NCBI RefSeq assembly: GCF_000382705.1
Contig: NZ_ARQE01000002.1
Coordinates: 434,001-498,000 of the forward strand
Source of the DNA: Aureimonas ureilytica DSM 18598 = NBRC 106430
GTDB taxonomy: Bacteria > Pseudomonadota > Alphaproteobacteria > Rhizobiales > Rhizobiaceae
Direction of reading: 5' to 3'
Length of the DNA: 64,000 nt
The notes under the pieces were generated by a model. The model did no database searches and was not told the origin of the DNA. It was given only the letters and a program-made list of their open reading frames with translations. Both the position numbers and the translations under genes were made by a program. Positions 23,011 through 43,458 of the stretch are shown one piece after another (position 1 is the first letter of the stretch; each line of letters opens with the position of its first letter).

Positions 23011-23124
23011 CACCGAATAGTTCCGTCTTTGTTCTCCCTTCGAAACCGGCTATCCTCCCGGGCGCGGCGAGAATCGCGGTGCGCCCTGGACGCTCCGCGC
23101 TCAGACGAATTCGAAGGTGCTCCC

Positions 23125-23655
23125 TTGCGACAAGCGGACCGGGACGAAGAGGAAGCGGAGATCGGCGAGGAGCTCGCCGAGCACACGACCGCGCCCGTCG
23201 CCCCCCACGCACCCTCGCGCAAGATCATCCATATCGACATGGACGCCTTCTATGCCTCGGTGGAGCAGCGGGACGACCCCTCGCTTCGCGGCCGGCCGGT
23301 GGCCGTCGGCGGCTCGCGCGAGCGCGGCGTGGTCGCAGCCGCGAGCTACGAGGCGCGGACCTTCGGCGTGCGCTCGGCCATGCCCTCGGTCACGGCGCGG
23401 CGCAAATGTCCCGACCTCGTCTTCGTCAAACCGCGCTTCGACGTCTACAAGGCGATCTCCGGCGAAATCCGCGCCGTCTTCGCCGAGCACACGGACCTGA
23501 TCGAGCCCCTGTCGCTGGACGAGGCCTATCTCGACGTGTCCCTCAACAAGCAGAACATCGCCTCGGCCACCGCGATCGCCGAGGCGATCCGCGAGCGCAT
23601 TCGCGAGGTGACGGGCCTCACCGCCTCGGCCGGTGTGTCCTACAACAAGTTTTAA
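23125..23655 (+). pseudogene. dinB: DNA polymerase IV (DinB), 5' part, disrupted by the island
   Basis: The first part of a Y-family translesion polymerase: [23 protein letters not shown] (catalytic Asp), [19 protein letters not shown], and SLDEAYLDV with the second catalytic acidic pair. The reading ends at SAGVSYNKF then TAA (23653-23655). In intact DinB proteins SYNKF is followed by LAKIASD and roughly 200 more residues of thumb and little finger. The break coincides with the start of the island, so the gene is disrupted and its 3' part is outside the window. The start could be TTG 23125 (GAAGG six bases upstream) or TTG 23029; no ATG fits. A truncated protein would not be an active polymerase. 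Confidence 0.9.
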
Positions 23656-23679
23656 CGCACACCCACAGGCGTTTCTTGT
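23645..23679. other. Probable left attachment site (attL) of the island
   Basis: The junction between dinB and the island carries half-sites ACAAG (23645-23649, still within dinB codons) and inverted CTTGT (23675-23679) with 25 bases between. This pattern is suitable for a tyrosine recombinase. The sequence is AT-richer than both sides. Exact core limits need the right junction, which is not in the window. Confidence 0.45.
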
Positions 23680-23724
23680 CAACAATTAGGGGCAAGCCGC
23701 TGTAAAACATTGCAAAATGCGCGT

Positions 23725-23753
23725 TTGACATAGTTTCTTCCCTGGGGTAACTG
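23725..23753 (+). promoter_or_regulatory. Likely sigma-70 promoter of the recombinase operon
   Basis: TTGACA (23725-23730), a 17-base spacer, then TAACTG (23748-23753), ten bases before the ATG at 23764. The leader is so short that the first gene may be translated from an almost leaderless mRNA; no SD is visible. Confidence 0.5.
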
Positions 23754-23763
23754 CCTCCGCCCT

Positions 23764-25149
23764 ATGAAGCATCTGTTGAAGTCCGAAGGCATCGCCGAAC
23801 TCAAGGTCGCTTTGGTCGTCTTTTCTGATGGCGAGCGATGCCCAATGCTCGTGGCGAGCGACGGCATCCCCCTGTTTGACCCGACAGTCTGGTCGCTCAC
23901 GAAGTATCGGAGGAGGAGTGCATCCACCTTGGAGCAAGCCCTCCGCGGGGCCATGCTCATCCACCTGTTCTGCTGGCGCCAAGGCATCGACCTGGCCGAA
24001 CGCATCAGGAGCGGCGCGTTCTTCGACGTCGGAGAGCTGGATGCCCTCGCATCGGACGCCTCAAAACCGTTCGCCCGGCTGCGGGGAACTTTGAAGATGG
24101 TTCCCGAAGCTGCGGTCGCCAGGAGACGCCGTCGCTCCGTTGCAAGAATGCATCGAAGGCTTCCTTCGACGGCCCGCGTGCAAGTGGTCACTCCCGCCAC
24201 TGCGATGATCAGACTGCATTACGCCGCGAGCTACCTCAAGTGGCTCGGAGAACGACAGCGACCCCGTTTCCCCACCGGGGCCATGAGCACCGACGAGGCG
24301 TTCGCGAGGATGCGGGAATACGGGGCGAGGCTGCTGGAAGTAGTCGGACAGATCGAGGAACGGATGCCGTCCGCCACCGACTCGGACCGCACGAGCCTTG
24401 AGCCCGAACAGCGGACCCGCCTTCTCGCGGTCGCCCACCCGGACAGCCTGGACAATCCATGGAGCGATCCGTTCGTGCGTCGGCGGAACTGGGTGATCGT
24501 GCGCTGGCTCCTGGCCACCGGGATGCGACGGGGTGAACTGCTCGGCCTCCGAGTGCGGGACTTCAATCGGGGCCAAGCCTATTGCGAGATCAAACGCCGC
24601 CATGACGACAAGCGCGACCGTAGACGTAGGCAGCCGAACGCAAAGACATTGGAGCGCTTCGCCCCTTTGGACGAGGACCTGACCGAGCTCGGGGAGGAGT
24701 ACCTCGAAGCCCGCAACCGGATCGAGGCCGCGCGCAAGCACGGCTTCCTCTTCGTCGCGCAAGACGGCAAAGCCCTTTCGGAGAGCGCGATCACGGGATT
24801 GTTCGCGTTGCTGCGCGAGAAGCATCCGGACGTCGGCCCGGTGAGCGCTCACGTCCTCCGGCATCAGTGGAACGAGGACTTCTCTGCCTACGCCGACGCG
24901 ATCAATTTGAGCGCCGAAGAAGAAGTCCGTGAACGCCGCTTGCTGATGGGGTGGTCCCGGACGTCCAAGATGCCGGGCCACTACTTGAAGCGCCGGACGA
25001 AGGTCAAAGCCGACGAACACAGCAGGGACATGCAGCGCCGGCTGATGAAGCACGGGTCCGCGATCCGGCAACGGATGCAGGACATGGAACGGGCAACCAA
25101 GGCGTTGCAGGACGACAGGGCATGGCTCGGGGAGGTGATCGGTGCGTAA
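23764..25149 (+). CDS. ginA: Tyrosine recombinase 1 of the island (GinA-like)
   Basis: 461-aa site-specific integrase. The catalytic domain spans about residues 230-420: TGMRRGELLGL gives Arg255, HVLRHQW gives His363 and Arg366, and GHYLKRR gives the nucleophile Tyr407. A Trp (LMGWSR) takes the H/W position. The N-terminal 220 residues form the core-binding part. The ATG at 23764 has no SD but lies ten bases from a good promoter. It overlaps the next recombinase by eight bases. The trio resembles the GInt ginABC set rather than shorter RIT-type trios. All catalytic residues are present, so it should be active. Confidence 0.85.
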   Translation: MKHLLKSEGIAELKVALVVFSDGERCPMLVASDGIPLFDPTVWSLTKYRRRSASTLEQALRGAMLIHLFCWRQGIDLAERIRSGAFFDVGELDALASDASKPFARLRGTLKMVPEAAVARRRRRSVARMHRRLPSTARVQVVTPATAMIRLHYAASYLKWLGERQRPRFPTGAMSTDEAFARMREYGARLLEVVGQIEERMPSATDSDRTSLEPEQRTRLLAVAHPDSLDNPWSDPFVRRRNWVIVRWLLATGMRRGELLGLRVRDFNRGQAYCEIKRRHDDKRDRRRRQPNAKTLERFAPLDEDLTELGEEYLEARNRIEAARKHGFLFVAQDGKALSESAITGLFALLREKHPDVGPVSAHVLRHQWNEDFSAYADAINLSAEEEVRERRLLMGWSRTSKMPGHYLKRRTKVKADEHSRDMQRRLMKHGSAIRQRMQDMERATKALQDDRAWLGEVIGA

Positions 25150-26698
25150 ACCACCCGTCGGCAAGCCGCCACACGCGGAGGCGGCCTACGAGCTTCCGGA
25201 CCAAGCCGAGACCCGCGACGGATACGTCTACCGTCCCTGCGACGATGATTGGCCCATCGTCACCGAAACCGGTCGGCTGAACTTCCACTTCGGCGATCTT
25301 GGTGTCGCTTACACGCTGAAGACCGGGTTCAAGGGGTTCGTCACGGCGCGACTGCGCAGCGAGAACCCTAAGTCGGCGTATGCGAATTACCAGTGGGTCC
25401 GAGGACTGGTCCTTCACATCGCGACCTACGACCCAAACGCACGTGCGATCTCATCCGCCCACCTGATGAATTATTCCGCTTCGCTCGAAGAGGGCCAAGG
25501 CTACCGTTCGACCGACGCCAACAGCGCTGTACGAACGTGGGCGCGCCTCGGCATCCCCGGTGTCTCGAGGGAAGCGTTCGTCACCGCCACTGACATGCCG
25601 AAGCAATCTAGGAAGCGAGCGCTCGCTGTCCGGTTGCGGTGCCCAGTCCAAGGTGCGTACACGAACCTCGAGTATGACGGACTGTACAAGGCCCTGCATT
25701 CGGCTTTCGCCGGGGGCAAAATCGCCATCGACAACTACGGTCTCTGCCTTCTCAGCGGAGCGATCGGGCCCAGGCCCGTTCAGATCGCCAGCCTTACGGT
25801 CGGCGATTTGACGGTCACGATGGGCCCCGCGGGAAAAACGTACGTCCTATCGATCCCCCGGGCGAAGCAAAGGGGCGCACGATACCGGACACAGTTCACC
25901 GAACGCCCGCTCATCGAAGAGATCGGAATGGTCATCGAGGCGCAATCCCTGTTGGTTCGCGAGCAGGCGCGGCTCTGCGGGATGCCCGTCCCCGACCAGG
26001 CACCCCTGTTCCCGGCAGTTCACGCGAGCGGTACATTCTATGACGGTAAGAAAACCCCTGCCCGCCCGACGTCAGCTTCAATAACGATGAGGATCATCAA
26101 CGTGATGGAGGGATTGGGCGTTAATTCCGAACGAACCGGAGAGGCGATCAACGTGAACGCCACACGCGCGCGACGCACGGTCGGTACGCGGGCGGCACAG
26201 GAGGGCAGATCCCTAGACGAGATCATGGTGATCCTCGACCATACGTCACGTACCGCAGCTCAAAGTTACATCGAGGTTCGTTCCGAGCTTCTCCAGCGCC
26301 TCGACAAGAAGCTTGCCATGTTGCTGGCACCCATGGCGCAGCGCTTTGCGGGAACCCTTGCGGCGCGTGGAAACGACGTCGGGCAAGGCATCGAGCGGCA
26401 CATCCTTGGATCCGTTGATGAAAGCGAAGGGCCCGTGGCCTTGGGCGGATGCGGGAAGCACGGCTTCTGTGGCCTCGGGAAACCGATTGCCTGCTACACG
26501 TGCCGGCTGTTCCATCCATGGTTGGATGGACCGCATGAAGAGATCCTCGACTGGCTTCTCGGTAGGCGCAGGGAGATGGCCGAGGACGGATCCATGGCCG
26601 TCGCCGCCACACTTGACGACACGATCGTCGCGTGTGCCGAGGTGGTCCGCCAATGCCAAGCGAGGGCGGCATCGCTGGAAAACGACCGAAATGGCTGA
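25142..26698 (+). CDS. ginB: Tyrosine recombinase 2 of the island (GinB-like), HxxR changed to NxxR
   Basis: 518 aa starting at GTG 25142. The catalytic domain shows GPRPVQIASL (Arg211), VNATRARRTVGTR (Asn339 and Arg342 where His-x-x-Arg is usual), ILDHTSRTAAQSY with His367 and Tyr376. Thus one of the canonical residues is Asn. The C-terminal region adds a Cys cluster CGKHGFCGLGKPIACYTC followed by FHPW, probably a zinc site. Overlaps of eight bases with both neighbours imply translational coupling. It may be active with a changed active site, or act as an accessory subunit; in GInts all gin genes are reported as needed for integration and excision. Confidence 0.83.
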   Translation: MRKPPVGKPPHAEAAYELPDQAETRDGYVYRPCDDDWPIVTETGRLNFHFGDLGVAYTLKTGFKGFVTARLRSENPKSAYANYQWVRGLVLHIATYDPNARAISSAHLMNYSASLEEGQGYRSTDANSAVRTWARLGIPGVSREAFVTATDMPKQSRKRALAVRLRCPVQGAYTNLEYDGLYKALHSAFAGGKIAIDNYGLCLLSGAIGPRPVQIASLTVGDLTVTMGPAGKTYVLSIPRAKQRGARYRTQFTERPLIEEIGMVIEAQSLLVREQARLCGMPVPDQAPLFPAVHASGTFYDGKKTPARPTSASITMRIINVMEGLGVNSERTGEAINVNATRARRTVGTRAAQEGRSLDEIMVILDHTSRTAAQSYIEVRSELLQRLDKKLAMLLAPMAQRFAGTLAARGNDVGQGIERHILGSVDESEGPVALGGCGKHGFCGLGKPIACYTCRLFHPWLDGPHEEILDWLLGRRREMAEDGSMAVAATLDDTIVACAEVVRQCQARAASLENDRNG

Positions 26699-28730
26699 CG
26701 TCATCCCGTTCGTGCCGAAAGCCCATCTCGCCGCCTTGGCGAACATGGAAGAGTTCGTACGGTTTTGCCGCGAAGAACTCACCGTGTTCGGCGCCGATCT
26801 CGAGTTCACCTCATCTTCCTGGAACGTCACGAAATCCTACCATATCCGTGGCAAGTCCCATAAGCACATCCTGAACTTCACCATGAACGCACCGCGGCGG
26901 GGGCAACTGGGTGCCGCTATGCCGGAGCCGTTCGCGGGTCAGGTGAAGGCCTACATCCGTTACCAGGTAGGTCGAGGTCCGGCGAAGGCTCCTCCACAGA
27001 ATGAAATCCTCGCTTTCAGGGCGTTGCTCGCGGCGTTCCTCGACAAAGCAGTGGCGCCGGACTTGGGTTCGGTGGATGCCCATCTCCTCGACCATGCCGT
27101 CCAACTTGCCGCCGCAAGGAGACCCGGCAACCATGCAGCGAGCATCGGCGTTCTTTTGACGCCGATCTCGCAGTTCCTCAGAGAGAACAATCTCGCAGCG
27201 AACGCCCCGATCGACTGGAAGCACGGCCAAGAGTGGGAACTGTACAACAAGCGCTCGAGAGACGAGCGCCGTGCGGCACTGATGCCTTCAGACGAGGCGC
27301 TCCAAGCGCTCCCACGGAGTTTTCGCAAAGCGACGGAACCCCGAGACGTGATCGCCACGTCGGTGATGGCGCTGCTGGCGTGCGCCCCGAGTCGCATAAA
27401 CGAGCTCTTCGCACTCCACCACGACTGCGAGATCAAGCCCCTGACGGATGGCGACGAGGGTTACATGCTGCGGTGGGCGGGCTCGAAGGGCCACCACGAC
27501 TTCGTAAAGGGCATCCCCGCAGTGATGGCCGATGTCGCCAGGGAGGCGCTCGCTCGGCTGAAGAAGCATACGGCGGAAGCACGACGCATCGCGGCTTGGT
27601 ATGAGCATCATCCCGATCGTCTCTATTTGCCGGACGACTGCGTTCACCTGCGGGGCAAGGACCTCTCCGGGGCGGACATCGCGCGTATCATCGGCTTCAA
27701 CGAAGCTGCCAACGGACGAGACTGGGCAATCGACCGCAAGCTCAAGCCGATCGAAGGGATGCGATCCTCTGGCGGGCGAAGGATCTTTGCGTTCCGCTTC
27801 TCGGACGTCGAAAGCGCCATCCTGTCCGAGTTGCCGCATGGCTTCCCGATCTTCGACAAGCAAACGGGCCTCCGCTACAGCGAAGCGCTGATGCTGGTGC
27901 GCCGGCAGGAATTCGCCGACCGCGGACGCGGACGATGGCGCTGCATGGTCGCCCCCGTTTCCTATGGCAACATCATGCACAGCTTCCACAGGCCCGACGG
28001 CGTCTTCGCGCGTCTTGGACTGTCGACGCCCGAGCATCCGATCGTCCTGAAGACCCACCAACTGAGACATTGGCTCAACACGCTGGCACAGCGGGGCGGC
28101 CTGACGGAGGCGGAGACCGCGGCCTGGAGCGGCCGCTTGGACCCCCGGCAGAACGAACCCTACGACCACCGGACGCCCGAGGAGATGCTGCAAGCGATGC
28201 GCCGCCGGGACAAGGAGGTGGCCACCATCAAGGGTACGGCGGTGAGCGTGAACCCACCGGTCGCGCGGAACGAGGCTGCGGCGCGCGCCGTCCACGGGCA
28301 TGCGACCGACATCGGCTTCTGCGGGCACGACTTCGCCTCGTCCCCCTGCATGATGTTCATGCAGTGCCTGCACTGCACCAAGCACACGTGCGTCAAGGGC
28401 CATGATCCGCGACACCTCGAAAGGGTGGAGCTCGGCTTGGAGCGCGCTCGGCAAAGCCTCGTGGAGGCAGAGGTGGCGCTGGCGAAGGAGTACGAGGGTG
28501 CCGACGACTGGGTCCGAGCCCATCGCGAGACGATCGAGCGCCTCGAGCAATTGCACGGCATCCTGTCCGACCCGACCGTGCCGGACGGTTCGGTGATCCG
28601 GCTCGCCAAGTCCGGCCGTTACTCCCTGGTCGAACAGGCCATGCGCGACAACGAGGTGGTCACGGGCGTCCTGCTGCCGCGGAACGTCGACGGCATGCGG
28701 GGGATCGGTGCAGGGACTGCCGGTGCCTAG
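26691..28730 (+). CDS. ginC: Tyrosine recombinase 3 of the island (GinC-like)
   Basis: 679 aa from ATG 26691 (eight-base overlap with ginB; the longer in-frame start lies inside ginB). Catalytic residues: APSRINELF (Arg235), THQLRHWLNT (His456, Arg459) and NEPYDH (Tyr491). A large insert of about 220 residues separates the Arg and the HxxR. The C-terminal third has a Cys/His cluster (CGHDF, CMMFMQCLHCTKHTC) followed by coiled-coil-like helices. This Cys-rich tail parallels the one in GinB. Length and position fit the largest recombinase of GInt islands. Complete catalytic set, so likely active. Confidence 0.84.
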   Translation: MADVIPFVPKAHLAALANMEEFVRFCREELTVFGADLEFTSSSWNVTKSYHIRGKSHKHILNFTMNAPRRGQLGAAMPEPFAGQVKAYIRYQVGRGPAKAPPQNEILAFRALLAAFLDKAVAPDLGSVDAHLLDHAVQLAAARRPGNHAASIGVLLTPISQFLRENNLAANAPIDWKHGQEWELYNKRSRDERRAALMPSDEALQALPRSFRKATEPRDVIATSVMALLACAPSRINELFALHHDCEIKPLTDGDEGYMLRWAGSKGHHDFVKGIPAVMADVAREALARLKKHTAEARRIAAWYEHHPDRLYLPDDCVHLRGKDLSGADIARIIGFNEAANGRDWAIDRKLKPIEGMRSSGGRRIFAFRFSDVESAILSELPHGFPIFDKQTGLRYSEALMLVRRQEFADRGRGRWRCMVAPVSYGNIMHSFHRPDGVFARLGLSTPEHPIVLKTHQLRHWLNTLAQRGGLTEAETAAWSGRLDPRQNEPYDHRTPEEMLQAMRRRDKEVATIKGTAVSVNPPVARNEAAARAVHGHATDIGFCGHDFASSPCMMFMQCLHCTKHTCVKGHDPRHLERVELGLERARQSLVEAEVALAKEYEGADDWVRAHRETIERLEQLHGILSDPTVPDGSVIRLAKSGRYSLVEQAMRDNEVVTGVLLPRNVDGMRGIGAGTAGA

Positions 28731-29181
28731 GGGCGTACGCAGGAAGCCCCCTGCCCGCCGTCCCCGCGCGCCGCCCATGACCCCGGAGCGCATCGCCCGC
28801 ATCGTTGCCCTGATCGACGGATGGACGGGTCGCCTCACGTGGGATGCGCTCTGCGAAGCGGTCGCGCGCGAGACCGGCGCAAGCTACAGGCGCGCGTCGC
28901 TCAACAACTACCTTCAGATCAAGGCTGCCTACAAGGCCTACGTCGAGAAGCCCACCCAAGCACCCGGCGGGAATGCGACCCCGGCACCCAAACAAAAAGG
29001 ACCGAGCAGGACGCAGAAGAAGATCATCAGCCTCGAAAGGAAGGTCGCCGAGCTGACGACCGTGAACGACGCCCTGCTGGAGAAGTTCGCCCGTTGGGCG
29101 GTGAACGCCAGCTCGCGCGGCCTCGACGAAGCGTTCCTGGATCAGCCCCTGGTACAGATCAAGCGATCCGAGAACCGATGA
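28708..29181 (+). CDS. Small HTH/coiled-coil protein of the recombinase operon, first of two
   Basis: 157 aa from GTG 28708 (GGGGGA just upstream), overlapping the ginC end by 23 bases. GTG 28723 or ATG 28777 are alternative starts; the first 23 residues are only basic (VRRKPPARRPRAPP). From MTPERIARIVALIDG a helix-rich segment with LTWDALCEAVARETGASYR looks like a DNA-binding helical bundle. A coiled coil (IISLERKVAELTTVNDALLEKF) follows. Position after ginC fits the small GinD protein of GInts or the small TnpC-type accessory protein of Tn554-like elements. I cannot decide between this and the next gene. Confidence 0.68.
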   Translation: MQGLPVPRGVRRKPPARRPRAPPMTPERIARIVALIDGWTGRLTWDALCEAVARETGASYRRASLNNYLQIKAAYKAYVEKPTQAPGGNATPAPKQKGPSRTQKKIISLERKVAELTTVNDALLEKFARWAVNASSRGLDEAFLDQPLVQIKRSENR

Positions 29182-29579
29182 TGGCGCAGAAGTCGTTCCT
29201 AGAGGTGAGCGAGGAGAACCATGCCAAGCTTGTCGAGTTCGTGGAGCGCTTACGCGCTTCCGGCCTGAAACTCCCCGGGCGTCTGGGCAAGGTCAACAAG
29301 ACCGCCGTCGCGAGGGCGTGCGGCTTTGCGCGTGAGGTTTTCCAGCAGAACTCCCGCTTCGCCCGCACCCTGGAAGAGGCCGTCGCGGAGCTAGGCATCG
29401 ACGTGCCGCAGGCGGAGGAGCCGGAGCCGCGGGACAGCGGGGACAAGTCCAGGATCATGCGTCTTGAGCAACAGCTCGCCGCCGTCCGCAGCGAGAACCA
29501 TGAGTTGAGGCGGCGCTTGCGCCGCTACGAGGCCATCGTGGACCACGTGGCGGTGTCGGGGCGGAGGGTGATACCATGA
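29178..29579 (+). CDS. Small HTH/coiled-coil protein of the recombinase operon, second of two
   Basis: 133 aa. ATG 29178 overlaps the previous stop (ATGA); ATG 29181 is the next codon and could be used instead. The N-terminal half has a helix-turn-helix-like segment, NKTAVARACGFAREVFQQN. The C-terminal third is a strong leucine-zipper-like coil (IMRLEQQLAAVRSENHELRR). The same two-part design is seen in the preceding gene, though they are not obviously similar. Its stop overlaps the helicase start by four bases. It may be the GinD equivalent or an extra subunit; no enzymatic motif is visible. Confidence 0.7.
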   Translation: MMAQKSFLEVSEENHAKLVEFVERLRASGLKLPGRLGKVNKTAVARACGFAREVFQQNSRFARTLEEAVAELGIDVPQAEEPEPRDSGDKSRIMRLEQQLAAVRSENHELRRRLRRYEAIVDHVAVSGRRVIP

Positions 29580-31468
29580 GTTCCTCCCCGATGGCGGCAT
29601 GGAGAACGGAGCTGCCGCGCGGCTACCATGTCGTCCGGTTCCTGGCGGGACGACCGGAGTTCGTCGGCGTGGGTCCCGCTACGGCCCAGCGGATGTGGGA
29701 TGTCTTCGGGGAAAGCCTTGACGACATCCTCGCCGAAGGCGACGTCGAGCGCCTGACGAAGGTCCTGCCGCGGACGCAGGCCGAGATCGTCTGCGATGCG
29801 TGGCGGAACCAAAGGACCATCACGAAAGCGGTCGCGTTCTTCGACCGGCACGGCATCGACATCCGTTACGCCCGGAAGGCCGTCGAGCTGTGGGGCGACG
29901 AAGCCATCGCCAAGCTCCAGGAGAACCCCTACCGCCTGTTGACGCTGTGCACCTGGAGAGAGGTGGATCGGGCCGCGAGGCGGCTCGGGGTCGGAGCTGA
30001 CGACCCGCGACGGCAGGTCGGGGCGGTGGAGGCGGCGCTCTACGAGCGGCTCGACGGGAAACACACGGTCACGTCCCGGGAGAAGCTCGTCCGCCATGCC
30101 TGCACGCTGCTCGGAGCGACGCCTGCGGATGCGGAACGCGCCGTGGCCATCGCGGTGGACGACGGTGCGGCCGTCCCTTGTCCCGGTGGCTACCAGCCCG
30201 CGGGCGCCGCTTACGCCGAGCGGTTCATCGAGACCCGCATCCGTGCGGCGCTGGCCGATGACGGACAGCCGAGGGATCTGCTGGCGAGCCGACCCACCCC
30301 AGTTGCGATGTCGACCTTCCTGGAACGTTATAACAGTCTCGCCTCCCAGCGACTGACGAGCGAGCAGGCAGACGCGGTGACGATGGCGTTGAACCATCGG
30401 TTCGCGATCCTCGTCGGCGGCGCGGGGGTCGGCAAGACCACGACGCTCCGCGCCATAAACGAGGCCGCCGAACACTTCGGATTCCACGTGCACCAGCTCG
30501 CGCTCGCAGGGAGGGCCGCGCAGCGAGTGGCGGACGCCACCGGCCGGGCGGCCCGTACGATCGCCTCCTGGCTTTGGGATGCCTCGAAAGGCCGCGCGGA
30601 AACGGGAGCGCACACGCTCGTCGTCGTCGACGAAGCGAGCATGCTGGACCTACCCACGCTCTACCGCATCCTGTTCCATCTCCACCAGGATGCGAGGCTG
30701 CTGCTGGTCGGGGACGTCGCCCAGCTCGCCCCGATCGGATACGGCCTCACCTTGCACCGTCTTGTTTCCAGTCCCCGGATCCCCCGTGTCGAGCTGACCC
30801 GCATCATGCGGGCCGACGAGGCGACGGGAATTCCGGCGGTGTCCCGAGCCGTACGTGAAGGCAAGTTGCCCGAGCTACCGACCTACGGGGACGGTCGCAC
30901 CGGGTGCAGCGTCGTCGGATGCGGGCCGGAAAGCGTCATCGACGAGATCGAGCGGATCCGCGACGACCTCCGCGGCGAGGAAGTGCAGGTCGTGGGAGCG
31001 ACCTATGCCGGCCCCGCCGGGATCGACGCGATCAACACGCACTTCCACCGCTACAACGCCCATGGTCGCCTGCGGCTCAAGCGCTTCGCCGAGGGTGACC
31101 CGGTCATCTGGACGAAGAACGACCACGAGCGCGGCCTTTGGAACGGAACCATGGGGCATGTCCTCGTCGTGAAGGAAGACCGCCTTACGGTCCGGCTCGA
31201 CGGTCGGACCTTCGACCTCCTGGCTGCCGACCTGTCCGGCCGGATCGACCTCGCCTACGCGATCAGCACGCACAAGGCGCAGGGGTCGCAGTGGGGCACG
31301 ATCATCGTGCCGCTGAGTTCCAGCCGTCTCTTCGATCGGGCCCTCCTCTACACGGCGCTGACACGAGCCGAGCGACGCGTGGTCCTGGTCGGCGACCTCG
31401 GGCATCTGCACCGTGTGGTTACACAGCAACCGAGTTCGCTTGCGCGCGACGTCGCGCTTGCCGTCTGA
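29576..31468 (+). CDS. RecD2-like superfamily 1B helicase/ATPase encoded in the recombinase operon
   Basis: 630-aa DNA helicase. The N-terminus contains a helix-hairpin-helix segment (GVGPATAQRMWDVFG) as in RecD2. Walker A GGAGVGKTTTL lies near residue 282, Walker B VVVDEASMLDLP near 350, and GDVAQLAPIG next. The C-terminal motifs AYAISTHKAQGSQW and LLYTALTRAERR are the SF1 motifs V and VI. About 100 residues shorter than typical RecD2. The ATG at 29576 overlaps the previous stop (ATGA), so it belongs to the recombinase operon rather than to the metal cargo. A role in processing the island DNA during excision or establishment is inferred. Such a helicase is not part of the described four-gene gin operon. 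Confidence 0.86.
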   Translation: MSSSPMAAWRTELPRGYHVVRFLAGRPEFVGVGPATAQRMWDVFGESLDDILAEGDVERLTKVLPRTQAEIVCDAWRNQRTITKAVAFFDRHGIDIRYARKAVELWGDEAIAKLQENPYRLLTLCTWREVDRAARRLGVGADDPRRQVGAVEAALYERLDGKHTVTSREKLVRHACTLLGATPADAERAVAIAVDDGAAVPCPGGYQPAGAAYAERFIETRIRAALADDGQPRDLLASRPTPVAMSTFLERYNSLASQRLTSEQADAVTMALNHRFAILVGGAGVGKTTTLRAINEAAEHFGFHVHQLALAGRAAQRVADATGRAARTIASWLWDASKGRAETGAHTLVVVDEASMLDLPTLYRILFHLHQDARLLLVGDVAQLAPIGYGLTLHRLVSSPRIPRVELTRIMRADEATGIPAVSRAVREGKLPELPTYGDGRTGCSVVGCGPESVIDEIERIRDDLRGEEVQVVGATYAGPAGIDAINTHFHRYNAHGRLRLKRFAEGDPVIWTKNDHERGLWNGTMGHVLVVKEDRLTVRLDGRTFDLLAADLSGRIDLAYAISTHKAQGSQWGTIIVPLSSSRLFDRALLYTALTRAERRVVLVGDLGHLHRVVTQQPSSLARDVALAV

Positions 31469-31822
31469 TGGATCGCACCTCGTCGAATGGGCGGATGATC
31501 GCGCGGAGCCAGGACCCCGGATCCACGGTCCTGCCAGCATTCGCGCCGTTCCAGAATACCCTCAGGGCGGACGCGGCCCGGTCCGGCGCGCTCCCCATAG
31601 CGCCGTAGCTGGACCGGGCCGCGTCCGCCCGTCCCCGTGCCCAGCACCTCGCAGCGGCGGCGCCGGAGTCGACCGGCATCCCGGTAGTGAGCGACCGGAT
31701 GCCGGCCAGCCTTCAAGACACGCATCGGGACAAGCTTCGTCAGGAGCCGGCCGACGCGTCCCGGTCGCTTCATGCACAAGAGCGTCCAGCACTGCATCGG
31801 CAAGCATTTCGCGGGAGGAGCC
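31469..31822. other. Non-coding junction between recombinase operon and cargo
   Basis: About 350 bases with no convincing gene. Frames open on both strands but are low-complexity GC-rich shadows. Its main content is the long hairpin at 31565-31630. The right end holds the stop of the DsbA-like gene, which reads leftwards into it, so the two operons converge here. Confidence 0.55.
31565..31630. repeat. Perfect 20-bp inverted repeat forming a long hairpin
   Basis: Left arm GGGCGGACGCGGCCCGGTCC (31565-31584) and right arm 31611-31630 are exact inverted copies. The 26-base loop has its own small stem, GGCGC (31585-31589) with GCGCC (31600-31604). It lies between converging operons. A bidirectional terminator without a T-tract, or a recognition site of the element, are both possible. 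Confidence 0.7.
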
Positions 31823-32572
31823 TTACCTTGCCGCCGCGTCGAGGATCGCCGCGAACTGCTCGGGCGGCAGCGCCCCGCGGTACTTCTTGCCGTCGACGAA
31901 GAAGGTCGGCGTGGAGTCGACGCCGAACTCGCTCGCACCGCGGTCCTTCGTCGCGACGACCTTGGCCTGTAAGTCGGCGTCGGAGAGGCATGCCCTGAAG
32001 CTTTCCTCCGTGAAGCCCGCCATGCGCGCGATCGACATCAACCTGCTGGCCGCGTCGTCCGCGTGCGCCCAGCTTTCGGACTGCTCGAACAGGGCGTCGA
32101 CCATCGCCGTCCGCCCGTTCTCGCCAGGGGTGCAGCGCGCCAGCATGGAGGCGGCGACCGCGCGCGGGTCGAACGGGAACTCGCGCACGATCAGCTTGGC
32201 CTTCCCCGTGTCGAGGTAGTCCCGCTTCAGGGTCGGGTAGGTGTTGGCGTGGAAGGCCGCGCAGTGGTCGCAGGTCATCGAGGCGTACTCGACGATGGTG
32301 ATCGGCGCGTCCGCGCGTCCGATAACCACGTCGGGCAGTACCTGCCCGGACATGAGGGCAGCGACGTCGACCTCGCCGTCCGGCACGGGCGCGGCAGCGA
32401 CCGGGGCCGCGGGCGCGGACGTCGCCGCCGGGGCCGGCGACGTGTTCTCCGCGACGGCAGCGGGCGGAGCGCCCTCGTCCGAGCATCCAGCGAGCGCGAG
32501 AAGGACGATGCCGAGGGCGGGCACGAGGGATCGGTGCGCGCGCCGACGGGCGCCGCGAACGGTTCGGGTCAT
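31823..32572 (-). CDS. DsbA-family thioredoxin-fold lipoprotein
   Basis: 249 aa. The signal ends in a lipobox (LLALAGCSD), so it is probably a lipoprotein. A Pro/Ala-rich linker to about residue 65 precedes the thioredoxin fold with active site MTCDHCAAFH and the cis-Pro region DSTPTFFVDGKKY. It resembles the BdbD/DsbA-like group often used as oxidase or isomerase in the periplasm. The role here may be to keep the many Cys-containing periplasmic metal proteins of the island folded. Start ATG 32572 is the first in frame. It appears to be cotranscribed with the small gene at 32660 (87-base gap). Confidence 0.85.
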   Translation of the reverse strand: MTRTVRGARRRAHRSLVPALGIVLLALAGCSDEGAPPAAVAENTSPAPAATSAPAAPVAAAPVPDGEVDVAALMSGQVLPDVVIGRADAPITIVEYASMTCDHCAAFHANTYPTLKRDYLDTGKAKLIVREFPFDPRAVAASMLARCTPGENGRTAMVDALFEQSESWAHADDAASRLMSIARMAGFTEESFRACLSDADLQAKVVATKDRGASEFGVDSTPTFFVDGKKYRGALPPEQFAAILDAAAR

Positions 32573-32659
32573 TGGAATGGTCCTGGATGCGCGCGGGCGG
32601 CCCTCGGGCGGCGGCGCGGGGAGACGGAAACGGTGACGGTCCGGCCGCGGGGGCCGGGT

Positions 32660-32992
32660 TCAGGCCCGCGTCCGGTCCGGCGGGCGCTCGTCGGGCATCC
32701 GGTCGCGGCCGAGGAGGAGGTCGGCCGGCAGGGGGCCGACGCGCGCTGCCGAGAACACGCGCGATCCGAGATCCGGACGGACGTCCGTCACGAGACCGAC
32801 GCCGCAGTGCACGTCGTCCGGCGACGCGGTTCCGTCCGATCCGCCTGCCGCGTCGGCATCGTGCGCCCCGGCCTCGAACGAGACCGTCACCGTCTCGGCG
32901 CAGCCGGGCACCGCCGCCATCCCATGGGCGAGGGAGGCGAACAGGGAGGCCAGCAGGACGAGCGCGAGCGCGGCGAACTTCATGCGCCCCAT
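32660..32992 (-). CDS. Small secreted protein, unknown
   Basis: 110 aa from ATG 32992 (or 107 from ATG 32983). An N-terminal signal (MKFAALALVLLASLFASLAHG) is followed by a short mature part with two Cys (VPGCAETV and DVHCGVG) and a charged, Pro/Arg-rich tail. The longer upstream frame to 33202 is ignored because the signal would be internal. It lies just upstream of, and co-oriented with, the DsbA-like gene, its possible redox partner. The Cys pair and secretion resemble other small metal-cluster proteins in this island; no family is recognised. Confidence 0.62.
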   Translation of the reverse strand: MGRMKFAALALVLLASLFASLAHGMAAVPGCAETVTVSFEAGAHDADAAGGSDGTASPDDVHCGVGLVTDVRPDLGSRVFSAARVGPLPADLLLGRDRMPDERPPDRTRA

Positions 32993-33204
32993 GATCCCGA
33001 CCGGGGCCGCCCAGTCAACATGCGACCCGACCGATACGGGCGCGCCAGCGTCGCCGCCTTTTGCCCACGTGCGCCGGCCGCGGCCCTTTACCCGTCCGAC
33101 CCGATCGGGCACCGTCCTCGGGTCGCCCGCGCCAGCGCGCATGCCCCCGCTCGGATGCCCGTCCATCCGTTCCGGGTAAAACGCATGTCCGGCACGGAAC
33201 ATTG

Positions 33205-33245
33205 TTCCCCTTAAGGGAATTTCGGCATTGTGCCCTGTGGGGGAA
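33205..33245 (+). promoter_or_regulatory. Palindromic operator candidate before the HigBA pair
   Basis: A CCCTTAAGGG palindrome (33208-33217) lies within TTCCCC (33205-33210). An inverted GGGGAA copy (33240-33245) lies about 13 bases before the toxin start. Antitoxins of HigA type autorepress by binding such palindromes; binding is inferred. Confidence 0.5.
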
Positions 33246-33257
33246 CCCTATATCGAT

Positions 33258-33569
33258 ATGCGTGTCCTCTCCAAGAAGACGCTGAGGGAGTTCTGGGAGT
33301 CGGAGCGCAAGCACGCCGTCTCGCAGGGGCCGCTCGAGGCATGGCACCAGGAGGCGCTGGCCGCGAGCTGGCAGAACCCGAACGACCTGAAGGCCACCTA
33401 CAAGAACGCGAGCGTCCTCAAGGGCGGCCGGGTCGTCTTCAACATCAAGGGGAACGACTACCGCCTGATCGTCAGCATCAACTACGCGGCACAGATCGTG
33501 TTCGTATGCTGGGTCGGGACGCACGAAGACTACGACGAGATCGACGCGGAGACGGTCAGATGCACGTGA
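33258..33569 (+). CDS. higB: HigB-type mRNA interferase toxin
   Basis: 103-aa RelE/HigB-fold toxin. The sequence has MRVLSKKTLREFWES at the N-terminus, KATYKNASVLKGGRVVFNIKGNDYRLIV in the middle and VCWVGTHEDYDEIDAETV at the end. This is the layout of the HigB family that cleaves mRNA in ribosomes. The ATG at 33258 is chosen over an upstream in-frame ATG (33228) because the family begins MRV. It overlaps the antitoxin start by ten bases, with the toxin gene first, as in typical higBA. Probably stabilises the island in its host. Confidence 0.9.
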   Translation: MRVLSKKTLREFWESERKHAVSQGPLEAWHQEALAASWQNPNDLKATYKNASVLKGGRVVFNIKGNDYRLIVSINYAAQIVFVCWVGTHEDYDEIDAETVRCT

Positions 33570-34759
33570 GGCCCATCAAGTCCGAGAGCGACTACGAGAC
33601 CGCGCTGGCGCGGGTCGGCGACCTCATGGCGGCGGAGCCGGGCTCGCCGGAGTTCGACGAGCTTGAGGTGCTGTCCACGCTGGTCGAGTCGTGGGAGGCG
33701 AAACACCACGCCATCGCGCATCCCGACCCGATCGACGCCATCGCGTTCCGGATGGAACAGGCGGGCCTGCGCCAGCGGGACCTCGTCCCGTTCATCGGCA
33801 GCGCGAGCAAGGTGTCCGAGGTCATGAAGCGCCAGCGGCCGCTGACGCTCGCCATGATCAAGAACCTGCACTCGGGGCTCGGCATCCCGGCCGAGGTGCT
33901 GCTGCGCGAGCCCGCGCGCGGCCCCCGCAAGGATGCCCTCGACGCCGAGCGCCTGCCGTGGGGCGAGATCGTGAAGCGGGGATGGATCCCGGGCTTCGCC
34001 GGCACCGCGCGCGAGGCGAGGTCGCGTTGCCATGAACTCGTGGCCTCGCTCGTCCCGCAGTCGGCCGGCTCCTGCCTCCAGCCCGCCCTGTACCGCAGGT
34101 CGATCCGCGGCGGGGCCGCCATGGACGACCATGCCGTCACGGCGTGGACGTCGCGGGTCGTGTCGCTGGCCTGCGCCCAGGCGCTCCCCGGCCGGTACGA
34201 GCGGGGCGTCGTCGACGACGCGTTCGTGTCCGGCCTCGTGCGCCTCAGCTTCCTCGACGACGGGCCACGTCTCGCCCGCGAGTACCTCGCCAAGCACGGC
34301 ATCCACCTCGTCGTCGAGAGGCACCTCCCGAAGACGAGGGTCGACGGCGCCGCCACCGTGCTGCCCGACGGCTCCCCGGTGATCGGCCTGTCGCTCCGGT
34401 TCGACCGCCTCGACAATTTCTGGTTCTGCCTCGCCCACGAGCTGGGGCACGTCGCCCTGCACCTCGGCGATGGCGGGGACGAGTGGTTCGTGGACGACCT
34501 GGAGTCCGACGCCGAGGGCGGGGAGACGTCACGCGAGGCCGAGGCCGACGCTTGGGCCCTCGAGGCGCTGTTGCCCGCCGACGCCTGGGCCGGCGCCGGA
34601 CCCGTCCGGCGGGAGGCGGAGGTTCGGGCGCTCGCCCGCAAGCTGTCCGTCAGCCCCGCCATCATCGCGGGACGCATCCGCTTCGAGCAGCGGAACTACA
34701 GGCTGCTCAACGACCTGATCGGCCAGGGAGAGGTGCGCCGCCAGTTCGGCGTCGCATGA
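33560..34759 (+). CDS. higA: HigA-type antitoxin fused to an ImmA/IrrE metallopeptidase
   Basis: 399 aa. Residues about 1-120 match HigA: MHVRPIKSESDYETAL, a helix-turn-helix from DAIAFRMEQAGLRQRDLVPFIGSASKVSEVM to RRPLTLAMIKNLHSGLGIPAE. After a linker, the C-terminal half is an ImmA/IrrE (DUF955) domain with the zinc motif LAHELGHVALH near residue 295 and a downstream acidic residue in EAEADAWALEALLP. ImmA proteins cleave repressors, so this antitoxin may couple repression to proteolysis. Starts at ATG 33560 within the toxin gene. The TGA is followed by an open frame that leads to the GNAT coding region. Confidence 0.85.
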   Translation: MHVRPIKSESDYETALARVGDLMAAEPGSPEFDELEVLSTLVESWEAKHHAIAHPDPIDAIAFRMEQAGLRQRDLVPFIGSASKVSEVMKRQRPLTLAMIKNLHSGLGIPAEVLLREPARGPRKDALDAERLPWGEIVKRGWIPGFAGTAREARSRCHELVASLVPQSAGSCLQPALYRRSIRGGAAMDDHAVTAWTSRVVSLACAQALPGRYERGVVDDAFVSGLVRLSFLDDGPRLAREYLAKHGIHLVVERHLPKTRVDGAATVLPDGSPVIGLSLRFDRLDNFWFCLAHELGHVALHLGDGGDEWFVDDLESDAEGGETSREAEADAWALEALLPADAWAGAGPVRREAEVRALARKLSVSPAIIAGRIRFEQRNYRLLNDLIGQGEVRRQFGVA

Positions 34760-34927
34760 GGCGGCCGGCAACGGTCACCGACAGAGACTGACGGGGCGCC
34801 GATACGCGGCGGAAACGGGAGCCGACCGATCCAGACGGAGCGGCTGCGCCTGAGGAACTTCCGGGCCGTCGACGCCGAAGGGCTCCTTGCATACCTGCGC
34901 GAGCCGCGGGCACGGTGCTTCCTGTCC

Positions 34928-35383
34928 ATGAAGCTTGCCGACCTCGCGGCCGCCGGGACGGAGGCGGCGCGAGGCGGCTCGTCCGACGAGCACGCGGCGA
35001 TCGCCCTTGCCGGGACCGACAACCTGATCGGCGACCTCTTCGCCGCGCGCGAGGAACCGGACACCCACTCCGTCGGCTGGAACCTCAACGCGGACCATGC
35101 TGGCGCCGGGTTCGCGCTCGAGGCGGCGCGGGCGCTCTTCCGGCACATCTTCGACGATCGGGGAGCACGGCGCCTCCATGCCTACGTCGAGGTCGACAAC
35201 GCGTCGTCCCGCCGCCTCTGCGAGAGGCTCGGCATGCGGGTCGAGGGCACGTTCGTCGAGTTCGTCACCTTCACCGGCGACCCCGACGGCATGCCCGTCC
35301 GCGAGGACACGATGCAGTACGCGATCCTGCGTCGGGAGTGGAATGCCGCCGGTCGAGCTCGGGCTGCGGCGCGGGTTGCCTGA
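34928..35383 (+). CDS. GNAT-family N-acetyltransferase with no standard start for its N-terminus
   Basis: From ATG 34928 there are 151 aa including LNADHAGAGFALEAARALFRHIF, the acetyl-CoA pyrophosphate region, and LHAYVEVDNASSRRLCERLGMRVEG, typical of RimJ/RimL-like GNATs. The family N-terminus is clearly encoded upstream in the same frame from about 34829: IQTERLRLRNFRAVDAEGLL. The frame back to the higA stop (34757-34759) has no ATG, GTG or TTG. The true start may be a rare codon, a read-through product of higA, or the gene may have lost its 5' end. Substrate unknown; antitoxin-linked and alone on the plus strand before the convergent mntH. Confidence 0.7.
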   Translation: MKLADLAAAGTEAARGGSSDEHAAIALAGTDNLIGDLFAAREEPDTHSVGWNLNADHAGAGFALEAARALFRHIFDDRGARRLHAYVEVDNASSRRLCERLGMRVEGTFVEFVTFTGDPDGMPVREDTMQYAILRREWNAAGRARAAARVA

Positions 35384-35405
35384 CGGAGGGTCGCCCGGCG
35401 GACAC

Positions 35406-36761
35406 TCAGTGCGACAACGTTCCGGCGACGAAATCGAACAGCAGCTTCACGTTCAGGATCGCGATGGCCACGGCGATCGCCAACGCCACACCAGCCAACC
35501 AGCGCGGGGCGACGAGCTCGCCCATCTTCCGGCGGTCCATCGTGAAGAGCACCAGCGGGAACACGGCAAAGGAAAGCTGAAGGCTGAGGACCACCTGCGT
35601 GAGGATCAGCAGCCGTGCTGTGCCCGCATCCCCGAACCAGATCGTCACCGATGCCGCCGGCACGATGGCGATGATCCGCGTGATCAGACGGCGCAGCCAC
35701 GGCGCGAGCCGGATGTTGAGGAAACCCTCCATCACGATCTGCCCGGCCAGCGTCGCCGTGACCGTGGAGTTGATGCCGCAGCACAGGAGGGCGACGCCGA
35801 AGAGGATCGGCGCGACGGCGGCACCGAGGATCGGCGCCAGCAGGCTGTGCGCTTCGCCCAGTTCGGCGATCCCCGTGCGGCCCGACGTGTGGAAGGCCCC
35901 GGCCGCCAGGATCAGGATCGACGCGTTCACGAGGAGCGCGAAGCAGAGCGCGACGGTGGAGTCGATCGTCGCGAAGCGCAGCGCCTGGCGTTTCTCCGGC
36001 AGGCTCGTGCCGTAGTCTCGGGTCTGCACGATGCCCGAGTGGAGGTAGAGGTTGTGAGGCATGACCGTCGCGCCGAGGATGCCGAGCGCGAGGTACAGCA
36101 TCTCCGGGTTCGACACGATCTCGGTGGTCGGTGCGAACCCGCGGATCACGTCGCCCCAGTTCGGGTCGACCATGGCGATCTGGACGGCGAAGCACACCGC
36201 GATGACGCCGAGCAGCGTCACGATCAGCGCCTCGACCCACCTGAAGCCTAGCCTTTGCAACCAGAGGATCAGGAACACGTCGACGGCGGTGATCAGGACG
36301 CCGATCTCGAGCGGGATACCGAACAGGAGGTTGAGGCCGATTGCCGTGCCGATGACCTCGGCGATGTCGGTCGCCACGATGGCGATCTCGGCCAGGAACC
36401 AAAGCGGCAGCGCCACGTAGCCGGGATAGGCGTCGCGGCAGGCCTGCGCGAGGTCGCGTCCGGAAGCGATGGCCAGCCTTGCGCAGAGCGACTGGAGCAC
36501 GATCGCCATGACGTTGGACAGGAGCGCGACGAAGAGCAGCGTGTAGCCGAAGGCCGATCCTCCGGCGATCGACGTCGCCCAGTTGCCCGGGTCCATGTAG
36601 CCGACGGCGACGAGATAGCCGGGGCCGAGGAAGGCGGCTGCCTTGCGCCAGGGCGGGGCGTTCCGGTCGACGCGGACGGTGCGGTGAACGTCGAGGAGCG
36701 ACCCGTCCCCGCGGTCCCGCTTCCATCCGGCATCGTCCACGCCTTCGTTCGAACCGGTCAT
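35406..36761 (-). CDS. mntH: Nramp-type Mn(II)/H+ symporter
   Basis: 451 aa from ATG 36761 (an upstream ATG 36788 has no RBS). It has 11 or so TM helices with the TM1 metal motif MDPGNWATS and the TM6 motif [10 protein letters not shown], both diagnostic of MntH/Nramp transporters. Imports manganese, and often iron or cadmium, into the cytoplasm. The N-terminal tail is hydrophilic. Divergent from mntR, with an inverted repeat between them, so Mn-dependent repression is probable. Mn uptake can protect against oxidative and metal stress, consistent with the island's other cargo. Confidence 0.93.
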
Positions 36762-36809
36762 CGTTCCGTGCCTCGCCCGCGATCGCATAGATTTGTTTCA
36801 CGACACATG

Positions 36810-36827
36810 GTTTGTCCAGTGACAAAC
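36810..36827. promoter_or_regulatory. MntR operator candidate
   Basis: GTTTGTC (36810-36816), CAGT, GACAAAC (36821-36827): a perfect 7-bp inverted repeat between mntH and mntR. Another related TTTGTTTC lies at 36792. The dyad is AT-rich in an otherwise GC-rich intergenic region. The size and position suit a DtxR-family (MntR) dimer. Confidence 0.6.
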
Positions 36828-36880
36828 TTTGTGCGTGAGGCTGCATCCTGCTACCGTGCCGCCATGCAAGGGAACACGAG

Positions 36881-37309
36881 ATGACGGCCGAGCGAGACGA
36901 ACCCGGGGCCGCCCCCATCGCCGCGCGCTTCGCCCGCGTGCGCAAGGCGAACCAGTCCGAGCTGTCGGAGGACTACGTCGAGATGATCGACGACCTGATC
37001 GGCGAGTTCGGGGAGGCGCGGGCGACCGACCTCGCGGAACGCTTCGGCGTGTCCTCGGGCACCGTCGCGCGCACCGTCCAGCGCCTCGCTCGCGATGGTC
37101 TCGTGGAGTCCAAGCCCTACCGGGCGATCTTCCTGACGGCCGAGGGCAAGGAACTCGCCGAACGCGTCAGGGAACGGCACCGCGTGGTCGTCGACTTCCT
37201 CGTCGCGGTCGGCGTCGCGCCCGACGCGGCCGAGATGGATGCCGAGGGGATCGAGCACCATGTCGGAAAGGACACCCTGGAGGCCTTCCGCAGGTTCCTG
37301 GCCCGCTGA
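36881..37309 (+). CDS. mntR: DtxR-family manganese-responsive repressor MntR
   Basis: 142 aa. The N-terminal winged helix (ATDLAERFGVSSGTVARTVQRLARDGLVESKPYRAIFLTAEG, read in parts) is joined to a dimerisation domain ending HHVGKDTLEAFRRFL. The metal-binding His/Glu set (EDYVEMI, ERHRVVVDFL, EGIEHHVG) is present. It represses Mn import when Mn is sufficient. The ATG at 36881 has AAGGGAA upstream. Divergent from mntH. Its stop lies within a stem-loop shared with the next convergent gene. Confidence 0.92.
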   Translation: MTAERDEPGAAPIAARFARVRKANQSELSEDYVEMIDDLIGEFGEARATDLAERFGVSSGTVARTVQRLARDGLVESKPYRAIFLTAEGKELAERVRERHRVVVDFLVAVGVAPDAAEMDAEGIEHHVGKDTLEAFRRFLAR

Positions 37310-37329
37310 CGGCGGTGCGTCGGTCAGCG
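37304..37329. terminator. Bidirectional stem-loop between convergent genes
   Basis: CGCTGAC (37304-37310) and GTCAGCG (37323-37329) form a 7-bp stem around a 12-base loop. The arms contain both stop codons, that of mntR and that of the L,D-transpeptidase. No T-tract; termination is inferred. Confidence 0.4.
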
Positions 37330-38340: not shown

Positions 38341-38487
38341 CTCGATCCGAGGGTTGGACGTGGCCGATCTCCGTCCATCATCGACGGTCGGGCTGTCGCG
38401 GGGGTGACCCGGAGGGTGCAACCGTCGCGACAGCCGACAGGAGACGTCTCGATCCGGCGGAAGTGAGGCGGACGCGTCCGTCGGTCG

Positions 38488-38910
38488 TCAGTGCGTCTCG
38501 TGCAGGCACTCGCCATGGTCGCCGAGGACCTCGATCACCCGGCACTCCGCCACCGAGTGGTTCGAGCAGTCCGTCATGCGGGCGACCTCGGCCCTGAGCG
38601 CCGTCAGCCGGGCGATCTTGTGGTCGATGTCCGCCAGGTGCGCCGCCGCGATGCGGTCGGCGCTCTCGCAGGGACGGTCCGGCTCGCCGGCCAGCGCCAG
38701 CAGTTCGCGGATCGGCTCGATCTCGAAGCCGAGCTCGCGTGCGTGCCGGATGAAACGCAGTCGCCGCAGGTCGGCCGCATCGTAGAGGCGGCGGTTGCCT
38801 TCCGTCCTCGGCGGAGACGGCAGGAGGCCGATCTGCTCGTAGTAGCGGATCGTCGGCACCTTGATGCCGCTCGCCCGCGAGGCCTCGCCGATGGACACGC
38901 CGCCCGTCAT
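38488..38910 (-). CDS. MerR-family metal-responsive regulator (Zn/Cd/Pb type)
   Basis: 140 aa from ATG 38910. The HTH (SIGEASRASGIKVPTIRYYEQIGLLPSPPRTEGNRRLY) is followed by the long dimerisation helix. The metal-binding C-terminus contains CESADRI, MTDCSNHSVAEC and GECLHETH. This Cys and His arrangement matches the CadR/PbrR/ZntR group rather than CueR or MerR. It is divergent from the P-type ATPase gene, 68 bases apart, and sits over an operator-like dyad. It should activate the ATPase when Zn, Cd or Pb is in excess. Confidence 0.88.
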   Translation of the reverse strand: MTGGVSIGEASRASGIKVPTIRYYEQIGLLPSPPRTEGNRRLYDAADLRRLRFIRHARELGFEIEPIRELLALAGEPDRPCESADRIAAAHLADIDHKIARLTALRAEVARMTDCSNHSVAECRVIEVLGDHGECLHETH

Positions 38911-38918
38911 TTTTCCGC

Positions 38919-38949
38919 TTGCTCCTCTAGCCACTAGAGGAGGTAGGCC
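38919..38949 (+). promoter_or_regulatory. MerR-type promoter of the Zn/Cd/Pb ATPase
   Basis: TTGCTC (38919-38924), a 19-base spacer, then TAGGCC (38944-38949). Centred in the spacer is a 9-bp perfect dyad CTCCTCTAG / CTAGAGGAG (38922-38942). A 19-bp spacer with a central dyad is the hallmark of MerR-family activation. Confidence 0.65.
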
Positions 38950-38978
38950 TCTCCTGAGAACGATGCAAGGAGAGCGCC

Positions 38979-41815: not shown

Positions 41816-41833
41816 CATCGAAAGGACCGATCC

Positions 41834-43373: not shown

Positions 43374-43375
43374 AG

Positions 43376-43412: not shown

Positions 43413-43458
43413 GTGCACCTTCACGGTCGGCGAGATCGCAACGGCTCGCGCGAGCGCG

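Follow-up and report, generated by a model that had tools for sequence, protein, structure and literature searches.

The described elements closest to the one reported here are the GInts, islands that carry a ginABCD operon. According to their original description, four-gene GInts were shown to circularise and integrate, and an ssb homologue hosts 6 of the 11 GInts chosen there (Bardaji et al. 2017, PMC5385486). SE elements, which are related, are reported to form a nicked double-stranded circle and to move by what appears to be a copy-out-like route, its replication step left unresolved and its factors unknown, while several GInts are described as leaving no detectable empty site (PMC10214605, PMC5385486). 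A helicase locked to a recombinase operon would be a concrete candidate for the copy-out step in the movement of trio-type islands. We analysed a 64,000-nt stretch of Aureimonas ureilytica DSM 18598 = NBRC 106430 (contig NZ_ARQE01000002.1, positions 434,001 to 498,000; G000:C2:434001-498000 in our numbering), referred to below as the window, which holds the left part of an island of about 48.7 kb (approximately C2:457652 to 506376) that extends past it. We favour, with a probability of roughly 0.55, the reading that this is a GInt-type island whose recombination operon has been extended by a small-protein gene, sm2, and a RecD2-like helicase gene acting in recombination or copy-out, and whose own dinB replaces the host copy.

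Six plus-strand open reading frames (ORFs) occupy positions 23764-31468 of the window, and neighbours overlap by 8, 8, 23, 4 and 4 nt, confirming the original prediction of six genes overlapping throughout; the starts of gene 3 (26691) and gene 5 (29178) were chosen inside longer open frames. The genes and the main evidence for each are as follows:

23764..25149, plus strand: gene 1, ginA-like tyrosine recombinase, 461 aa (PF00589, 3.8e-13; alignment with nine other trios)
25142..26698, plus strand: gene 2, ginB-like tyrosine recombinase, 518 aa (NF041502, trio alignment)
26691..28730, plus strand: gene 3, ginC-like recombinase-fold protein, 679 aa (trio alignment, weak XerH/Cre fold match)
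28708..29181, plus strand: gene 4, ginD-like small helix-turn-helix (HTH)/coiled-coil protein, 157 aa (identity to GinD-position genes)
29178..29579, plus strand: gene 5, sm2, distant GinD homologue accompanying the helicase, 133 aa (hhalign to the GinD profile)
29576..31468, plus strand: gene 6, RecD2-like superfamily 1B (SF1B) helicase, 630 aa (domain, equivalog and structure-profile matches)

By homology, genes 1-4 are a gin operon, in the order ginA, B, C, D. A tblastn search of plasmids with gene 3 returned 74 records, 48 of which cover at least 80% of the query, and six plasmid loci were examined closely (L092, L093, L094, L097, L098 and L099; L093 is rearranged and the ginA of L098 is interrupted). 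The annotation of pTROUS1, an E. coli plasmid and pPAD8 runs from ssb through three recombinase-type genes and one small gene into cargo, and window genes 1-4 matched the plasmid trio genes in the same order, so that the GInt-type operon that had been predicted from the sequence was borne out. Neither sm2 nor the helicase was found in the six plasmid loci by tblastn, nor by profile at a meaningful score. Gene 2 matched the NCBIfam site-specific integrase NF041502 over its whole length at 340 bits (cut-off 350), and PF00589 at just 0.0057. Gene 3 gave no match in Pfam or NCBIfam; it shares 29-46% identity with the third genes of ten other trios and 90% with its A. phyllosphaerae counterpart. 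A recombinase fold for GinC is hinted at by a weak XerH/Cre fold match of a poor structure model (predicted local distance difference test score, pLDDT, 60.6), for which 45 of the 50 listed fold matches were tyrosine recombinases or integrases, none at E <= 0.001. The R, K, HxxR(H) and Y positions, as read from alignments only, are conserved in all three recombinases; the GInt and SE papers describe GinC as lacking part of the catalytic motif (PMC5385486, PMC10214605). The trio alignments also displayed invariant cysteine (and histidine) clusters resembling metal-binding sites in the C-termini of GinB and GinC. Gene 4 showed weak HTH_32 and bZIP matches under the cut-off, 27-50% identity to the GinD-position genes of other trios and 91% to that of A. 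phyllosphaerae.

Several of the features by which GInts are recognised have counterparts at this locus. Three recombinase-type genes and one small-protein gene stand in ginABCD tandem; the island, at about 48.7 kb, falls within the 2.5 to at least 70 kb of cargo that follows ginD in GInts, with sm2 and the helicase placed between ginD and cargo; and insertion is site-specific, at a common dinB codon. GInts are flanked by imperfect direct repeats of 10-17 nt; a possible equivalent here is an imperfect repeat with a short exact core, AAGTT, in CTACAACAAGTT and CTATAAAAGTT. GInts are further characterised by a short AT-rich 3' end and by excision as a circle that depends on all four gin genes. 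RIT elements carry three recombinases of 315-410 aa and 34-bp terminal inverted repeats; the present recombinases, of 461, 518 and 679 aa, lie outside that size range, a comparison made on recombinase size and not on the terminal repeats. No GmtY match, as required of a Gamma-mobile-trio, was found among the families listed for genes 1-3.

As judged from sequence profiles, sm2 and GinD are distantly homologous (hhalign probability 94.9%, E 4.5e-8). The other matches of sm2 were to DUF6262, weakly and under the cut-off, and to the VPA1267 family (NF040697) at 50 bits against a cut-off of 90. Its structure model (pLDDT 77.3) consists of helices followed by a 41-residue helix and has a best PDB match of E 0.83, so the HTH reading of sm2 depends on its homology to GinD. 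Gene 6 contains AAA_30, HHH_RecD2 and UvrD_C_2 domains and retains the GGAGVGKTT and DEASM motifs; it scored 343 bits with the RecD2 equivalog TIGR01448, below the 500-bit cut-off for membership, and the helicase family profile matched the D. radiodurans RecD2 structure 3e1s at 3.7e-84.

The original prediction had treated the helicase and the second small protein as additions to a four-gene gin operon. They are indeed two extra genes, but the helicase is no one-off: sm2 and helicase recur as a pair in Alpha- and Betaproteobacteria and further Pseudomonadota, also beside recombinase modules that the gin profiles miss. The proposed search for recombinase trios followed by a RecD2-like gene recovered the same order in other genera, and this recurrence makes the operon more than a chance arrangement. 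In the search of genome contigs with the helicase (best 80 of 315 relatives; genome samples throughout held one genome per species), the helicases of loci L012-L019 were 34-95% identical to gene 6 and the rest of these 80 were 27-32% identical, mostly over the motor domain. The six-gene order was present in L012-L016, the five of these eight loci that reach far enough upstream, and twice in L015, while L017-L019 begin near the helicase. Among 385 alphaproteobacterial genomes GinC was found in four (the present one, G361, G028 and G175), three of which encode the helicase about 1-1.8 kb downstream of GinC (463-1009 bits) and one of which, G175, does not; another 25 genomes had RecD2-type matches alone, reaching 398 bits at most. 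The 398 Pseudomonadota genomes sampled included 13 in which GinC was found, and a helicase scan of the same sample at E <= 1e-118 returned 11 genomes, namely the four in which the helicase accompanies GinC (the present one, G361, G629 and G028) and seven more. sm2 lies directly upstream of the helicase in six of these seven; the seventh, G731, has a broken helicase frame and showed no sm2. GinA, B and C precede the pair in G721, G587 and G715, and the GinC scan, made at 1e-30, evidently undercounts because these trios escaped it. What precedes the pair in G442, G701 and G645 is a set of different large proteins, among them one or more tyrosine recombinases.

The association was compared with controls by scoring sm2 within 1.6 kb upstream of the helicase on the same strand, RecD2 loci being covered with a 1.5 kb flank. 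By this measure sm2 was present at 18 of 21 trio-linked loci, as against 0/26 ordinary RecD2, 0/72 other genome and 0/80 viral loci. Six sequences from five of the 21 loci had gone into the sm2 profile, and with those loci excluded the count was 13 of 16. Three of the 18 matches were weak, at 31-33 bits (L017, L096 and L263), and the gap in L137 was 1.4 kb; the three misses were a contig end (L019) and two degenerate loci (L095 and L265). The viral helicase relatives (best 80 of 482) were 22-36% identical and none had sm2; one of these 80 loci, the IMG/VR contig L230, was alone in giving a GinA/GinB-profile match. A phage origin was considered and rejected, as a GinB alignment against viral contigs gave 16 pattern matches and no relative. 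On a Rhodovastum atsumiense plasmid (L096:10491-14067), a RepB-type primase, a weak sm2 and a trio-type helicase stand in a row, and two large upstream proteins matched no family. In a quick tree, the trio-linked helicases grouped with those of Rhodovastum and Thioclava and three contig-end ones (SH-like approximate likelihood ratio test, SH-aLRT, 93), and 25 of 26 ordinary RecD2 rows grouped apart (92), with a long row, L126, outside both groups. No report of an sm2-helicase pair in recombinase-trio islands turned up in listings of the open-access literature.

The insertion lies within the polymerase IV gene of the host, and the earlier prediction had missed both this and the dinB that the island itself carries. 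The features concerned are:

23029..23655, plus strand: 5' part of host dinB (PF00817, 163 bits; conserved protein from about 23218)
23644..23763: left junction and leader before ginA, reading AACAAGTT and then directly TTAACGC, with the crossover at about 23652
G000:C2 approximately 506376-507017 (equal to L011:16377-17017): 3' part of host dinB, by sequence comparison

With the remainder of dinB placed outside the window, at a distance of about 48.7 kb, the six-gene operon forms the left end of the island. The 5' part of host dinB ends in GVSYNKF and then meets a stop codon inside island DNA, and the right junction reads TATAAAAGTT and then directly CCTCGCC. Host dinB was matched in 15 of 21 related genomes, and of nine dinB loci read at the insertion site, six, all from the same genus, were intact (YNKFLAK) and three were interrupted at an identical codon (the present one, G754 and G749). 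The A. phyllosphaerae dinB is interrupted at this codon too, bringing the occupied genomes to four. The left junctions of the three other genomes are 95.6-96.9% identical to one another and 88.7-89.7% identical to that of the window island. Comparison of these loci identifies the NKF codon of dinB as the insertion target; it is interior to the gene, so insertion breaks the host gene. A search for repeats over the part of the island inside the window gave nothing usable at its ends.

A complete dinB of 399 aa lies on the minus strand within the island, next to the right end (L011:14966-16165); its identity to the host gene is about 71% over the 5' part and 57% over the 3' part. Elsewhere in the genome no intact dinB was found, the remaining matches consisting of a 549-aa protein plus two weak ones. 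The same layout recurs in A. phyllosphaerae, whose island dinB is 91% identical. The two islands can be aligned in a left-end block of about 9.4 kb, which includes the six genes, and a right-end block of about 5.4 kb, which includes dinB; the cargo in between is partly common but in different order. G754 and G749, in which the left junction was read, have a second dinB about 55 kb away on the opposite strand. In Cohaesibacter haloalkalitolerans, a system of like layout splits dut (5' part G745:C11:237084-237386, 3' part 210201-210380), and a complete dUTPase gene (L013:8938-9390; PF00692, 3.8e-31) sits inside the recombinase operon, between gene 4 and sm2. This locus is of the six-gene type, but its recombinases are too divergent for a Gin label; no other intact dut was found in the Cohaesibacter genome. 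Thus both interior targets met here, dinB and dut, are accompanied by a complete copy, although two cases are few. Other trio insertions lie at gene ends, namely those of ssb (several loci, by eye or from plasmid annotation), a ribonucleotide reductase gene (L263) and an endonuclease III gene (L262), where replacement genes were not searched for. Such an arrangement would explain how an island persists inside an important gene, since the island would hold the only working dinB or dut. No report of a replacement dinB or dut in such islands turned up in listings of the open-access literature. The idea that the insertion site had been recoded in the island dinB was dropped: both island copies depart from the host sequence at 6 of 15 nt there, yet 10 of 103 other 15-nt windows differ equally. 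The GC content at third codon positions of this site was unusual at most in the window copy (7%, 13% and 4% of windows were as low; for Aureimonas 34%, 43% and 53%).

In the mechanism that we envisage, GinA-D would exchange strands site-specifically, both at the ends of the island and at the target. sm2, built like GinD, probably binds DNA or the recombination complex and may recruit the helicase, which would most likely unwind a nicked or Holliday-junction intermediate and so lead to circularisation or copy-out, in line with the proposal made for the related SE elements. Unwinding is presumed to proceed in the direction typical of the RecD family. The island dinB should preserve the polymerase IV of the cell and make loss of the island costly. 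Support at the level of sequence comes from the gene content, homology, recurrence of the pair, the insertion site, the empty sites and the second dinB.

Several observations weigh against this reading. The helicase was absent from the 5-7.5 kb downstream examined in 8 of the 13 GinC-bearing genomes (four had it and in one the contig ended too early to tell). The GInt class as a whole can therefore do without the pair, and islands without a linked helicase, one part of the refuting case named beforehand, do exist. As four-gene GInts circularise and integrate, the class does not need the helicase, and a host helicase may do the job elsewhere. No relaxase, primase or origin was recognised in the six-gene operon, copy-out as applied to GInts would remain a proposal based on the SEs, and the island dinB shows no exceptional divergence at the insertion site. 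Moreover, the presence of the helicase requires six changes on the GinC tree and four on the GinB tree, of which well supported branches alone force three and two (both trees exclude L013, too divergent, and L141, cut). A single gain is unsupported given these counts, and the repeated gain or loss suggested by the trees would also fit an exchangeable accessory.

RecD2 proteins are linked to DNA repair, and the pair might instead act after transfer, by protecting, repairing or recombining incoming island DNA or by countering host nucleases, and so help the island to establish itself in new hosts, the second role suggested in the original prediction. Incoming DNA that is linear or nicked could be a substrate for the helicase, and the pair also accompanies trios of other kinds. 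We consider this unlikely, as the tight overlap with the recombination genes and the descent of sm2 from the GinD family favour a recombination complex.

Somewhat less probable again is that the pair is stable cargo, an accessory with no role in movement that is retained beside ginD by position. Its absence from most sampled GInts and its repeated gain or loss would agree with this, as would the interrupted operon of G629 (L137:9672-14400), where other genes stand between ginC and ginD and between sm2 and the helicase; the operon can therefore be broken up. In Paraburkholderia elongata, in contrast, two six-gene modules lie in tandem after ssb (L015:3963-20141), the first of which has no visible cargo and forms an element of about 8.3 kb: ssb and the six genes are followed, 28 nt past the helicase, by the motif CACTCACTCACA and then by a left end like that of P. 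oxyphila at ssb. The same motif occurs 271 nt past the helicase in P. oxyphila and 108 nt past it in the second P. elongata module. A shared right flank was not found when the flanks of the two Paraburkholderia elements were compared, so that the boundaries are drawn from the end motifs. Since this apparently cargo-free element keeps the pair, the pair looks like mobile core rather than cargo. Its constant position in divergent trios and the strict sm2-helicase association argue in the same direction, as does selection: the ratios of nonsynonymous to synonymous substitution between the window and A. phyllosphaerae islands were 0.16 for ginA, 0.19 for ginB, 0.19 for ginC, 0.35 for ginD, 0.10 for sm2, 0.17 for the helicase and 0.11 for the island dinB, from which all six genes and the island dinB are estimated to be under purifying selection.

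That the helicase is the remnant of a conjugation relaxase-helicase and the island mobilisable is highly improbable, since TraA/TraI models do match the motor domain but the protein lacks a relaxase domain and is matched better by the RecD2 model and the HHH_RecD2 domain, and the TrwC relaxase-helicase at L142 reached just 132 bits with the helicase profile. That TrwC protein, which lies near a trio, was rejected as unrelated.

Extending the preferred reading, a helicase pair acting in recombination or copy-out, to trio islands of several kinds is a bolder proposal, which we put forward tentatively and on balance doubt. Such islands might share a dedicated two-gene unwinding module, a GinD-like adaptor and a RecD2-like helicase, that drives copy-out, and those inside an important DNA-metabolism gene might bring a diverged working replacement (dinB, dut), which would create host dependence and a poor target for re-insertion, an insert-and-replace form of addiction.

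The rest of the island within the window is cargo:

31469..64000: remaining island DNA, with metal transporters and a HigB toxin

Window positions 33228-34759 hold a HigB-type toxin gene (PF09907) followed by an ORF that resembles, by eye, an antitoxin fused to a peptidase-like part, and an NRAMP transporter, two heavy-metal P-type ATPases and a major facilitator superfamily transporter are encoded at 35406-61000. Near its right end (L011:9597-12795) the island encodes a nucleoid-associated protein of the NA37 type as well as an AAA protein, part of which weakly matches M41 peptidases; this AAA protein falls within the right block common to the A. phyllosphaerae island.

Among known systems, the island resembles the GInts in its same-order trio with a small HTH-type protein at the left end, its large cargo and its site-specific insertion, and the plasmid trios that match the window genes lie after ssb, a published GInt site (PMC5385486). 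It differs in the two genes added after ginD, in insertion inside dinB rather than at a gene end and in a second complete dinB; the main text of that paper is without the words helicase, RecD, dinB and umuC, and has rulB once, in the reference list. The integron-like elements in rulB also place three recombinases and a small regulator-like gene within a Y-family polymerase gene (Rhodes et al. 2014, PMC4542609). One of them, ILE-FH4, lists a reversed 160-aa rulB-like ORF as its last ORF, a precedent in layout for the window island, which has a complete dinB (PMC4542609). These elements differ in their rulB target, GAT repeat, short rulB-like ORF and, in the FH4 gene table, the lack of a helicase, the comparison being one of layout and not of recombinase sequence (PMC4542609). 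SE elements (intA-tfp-intB-srap) share with the window operon, by gene layout, three recombinase-type genes and a small protein, whereas their proteins and those of GInts form separate clusters and SEs are reported solely in Gammaproteobacteria (PMC10214605). With the D. radiodurans RecD2 (3e1s), the window helicase aligns over the helix-hairpin-helix and SF1B motor regions, but it is below the equivalog cut-off and on a branch separate from chromosomal RecD2. VPA1267 is a neighbour of the Gamma-mobile-trio in Vibrio. In L261 the counterpart of sm2 belongs fully to the VPA1267 family (193 bits), and the recombinase next to it matches GmtY weakly (32 bits, cut-off 340), in contrast to the window, where gene 1 has no GmtY match and sm2 matches VPA1267 weakly.

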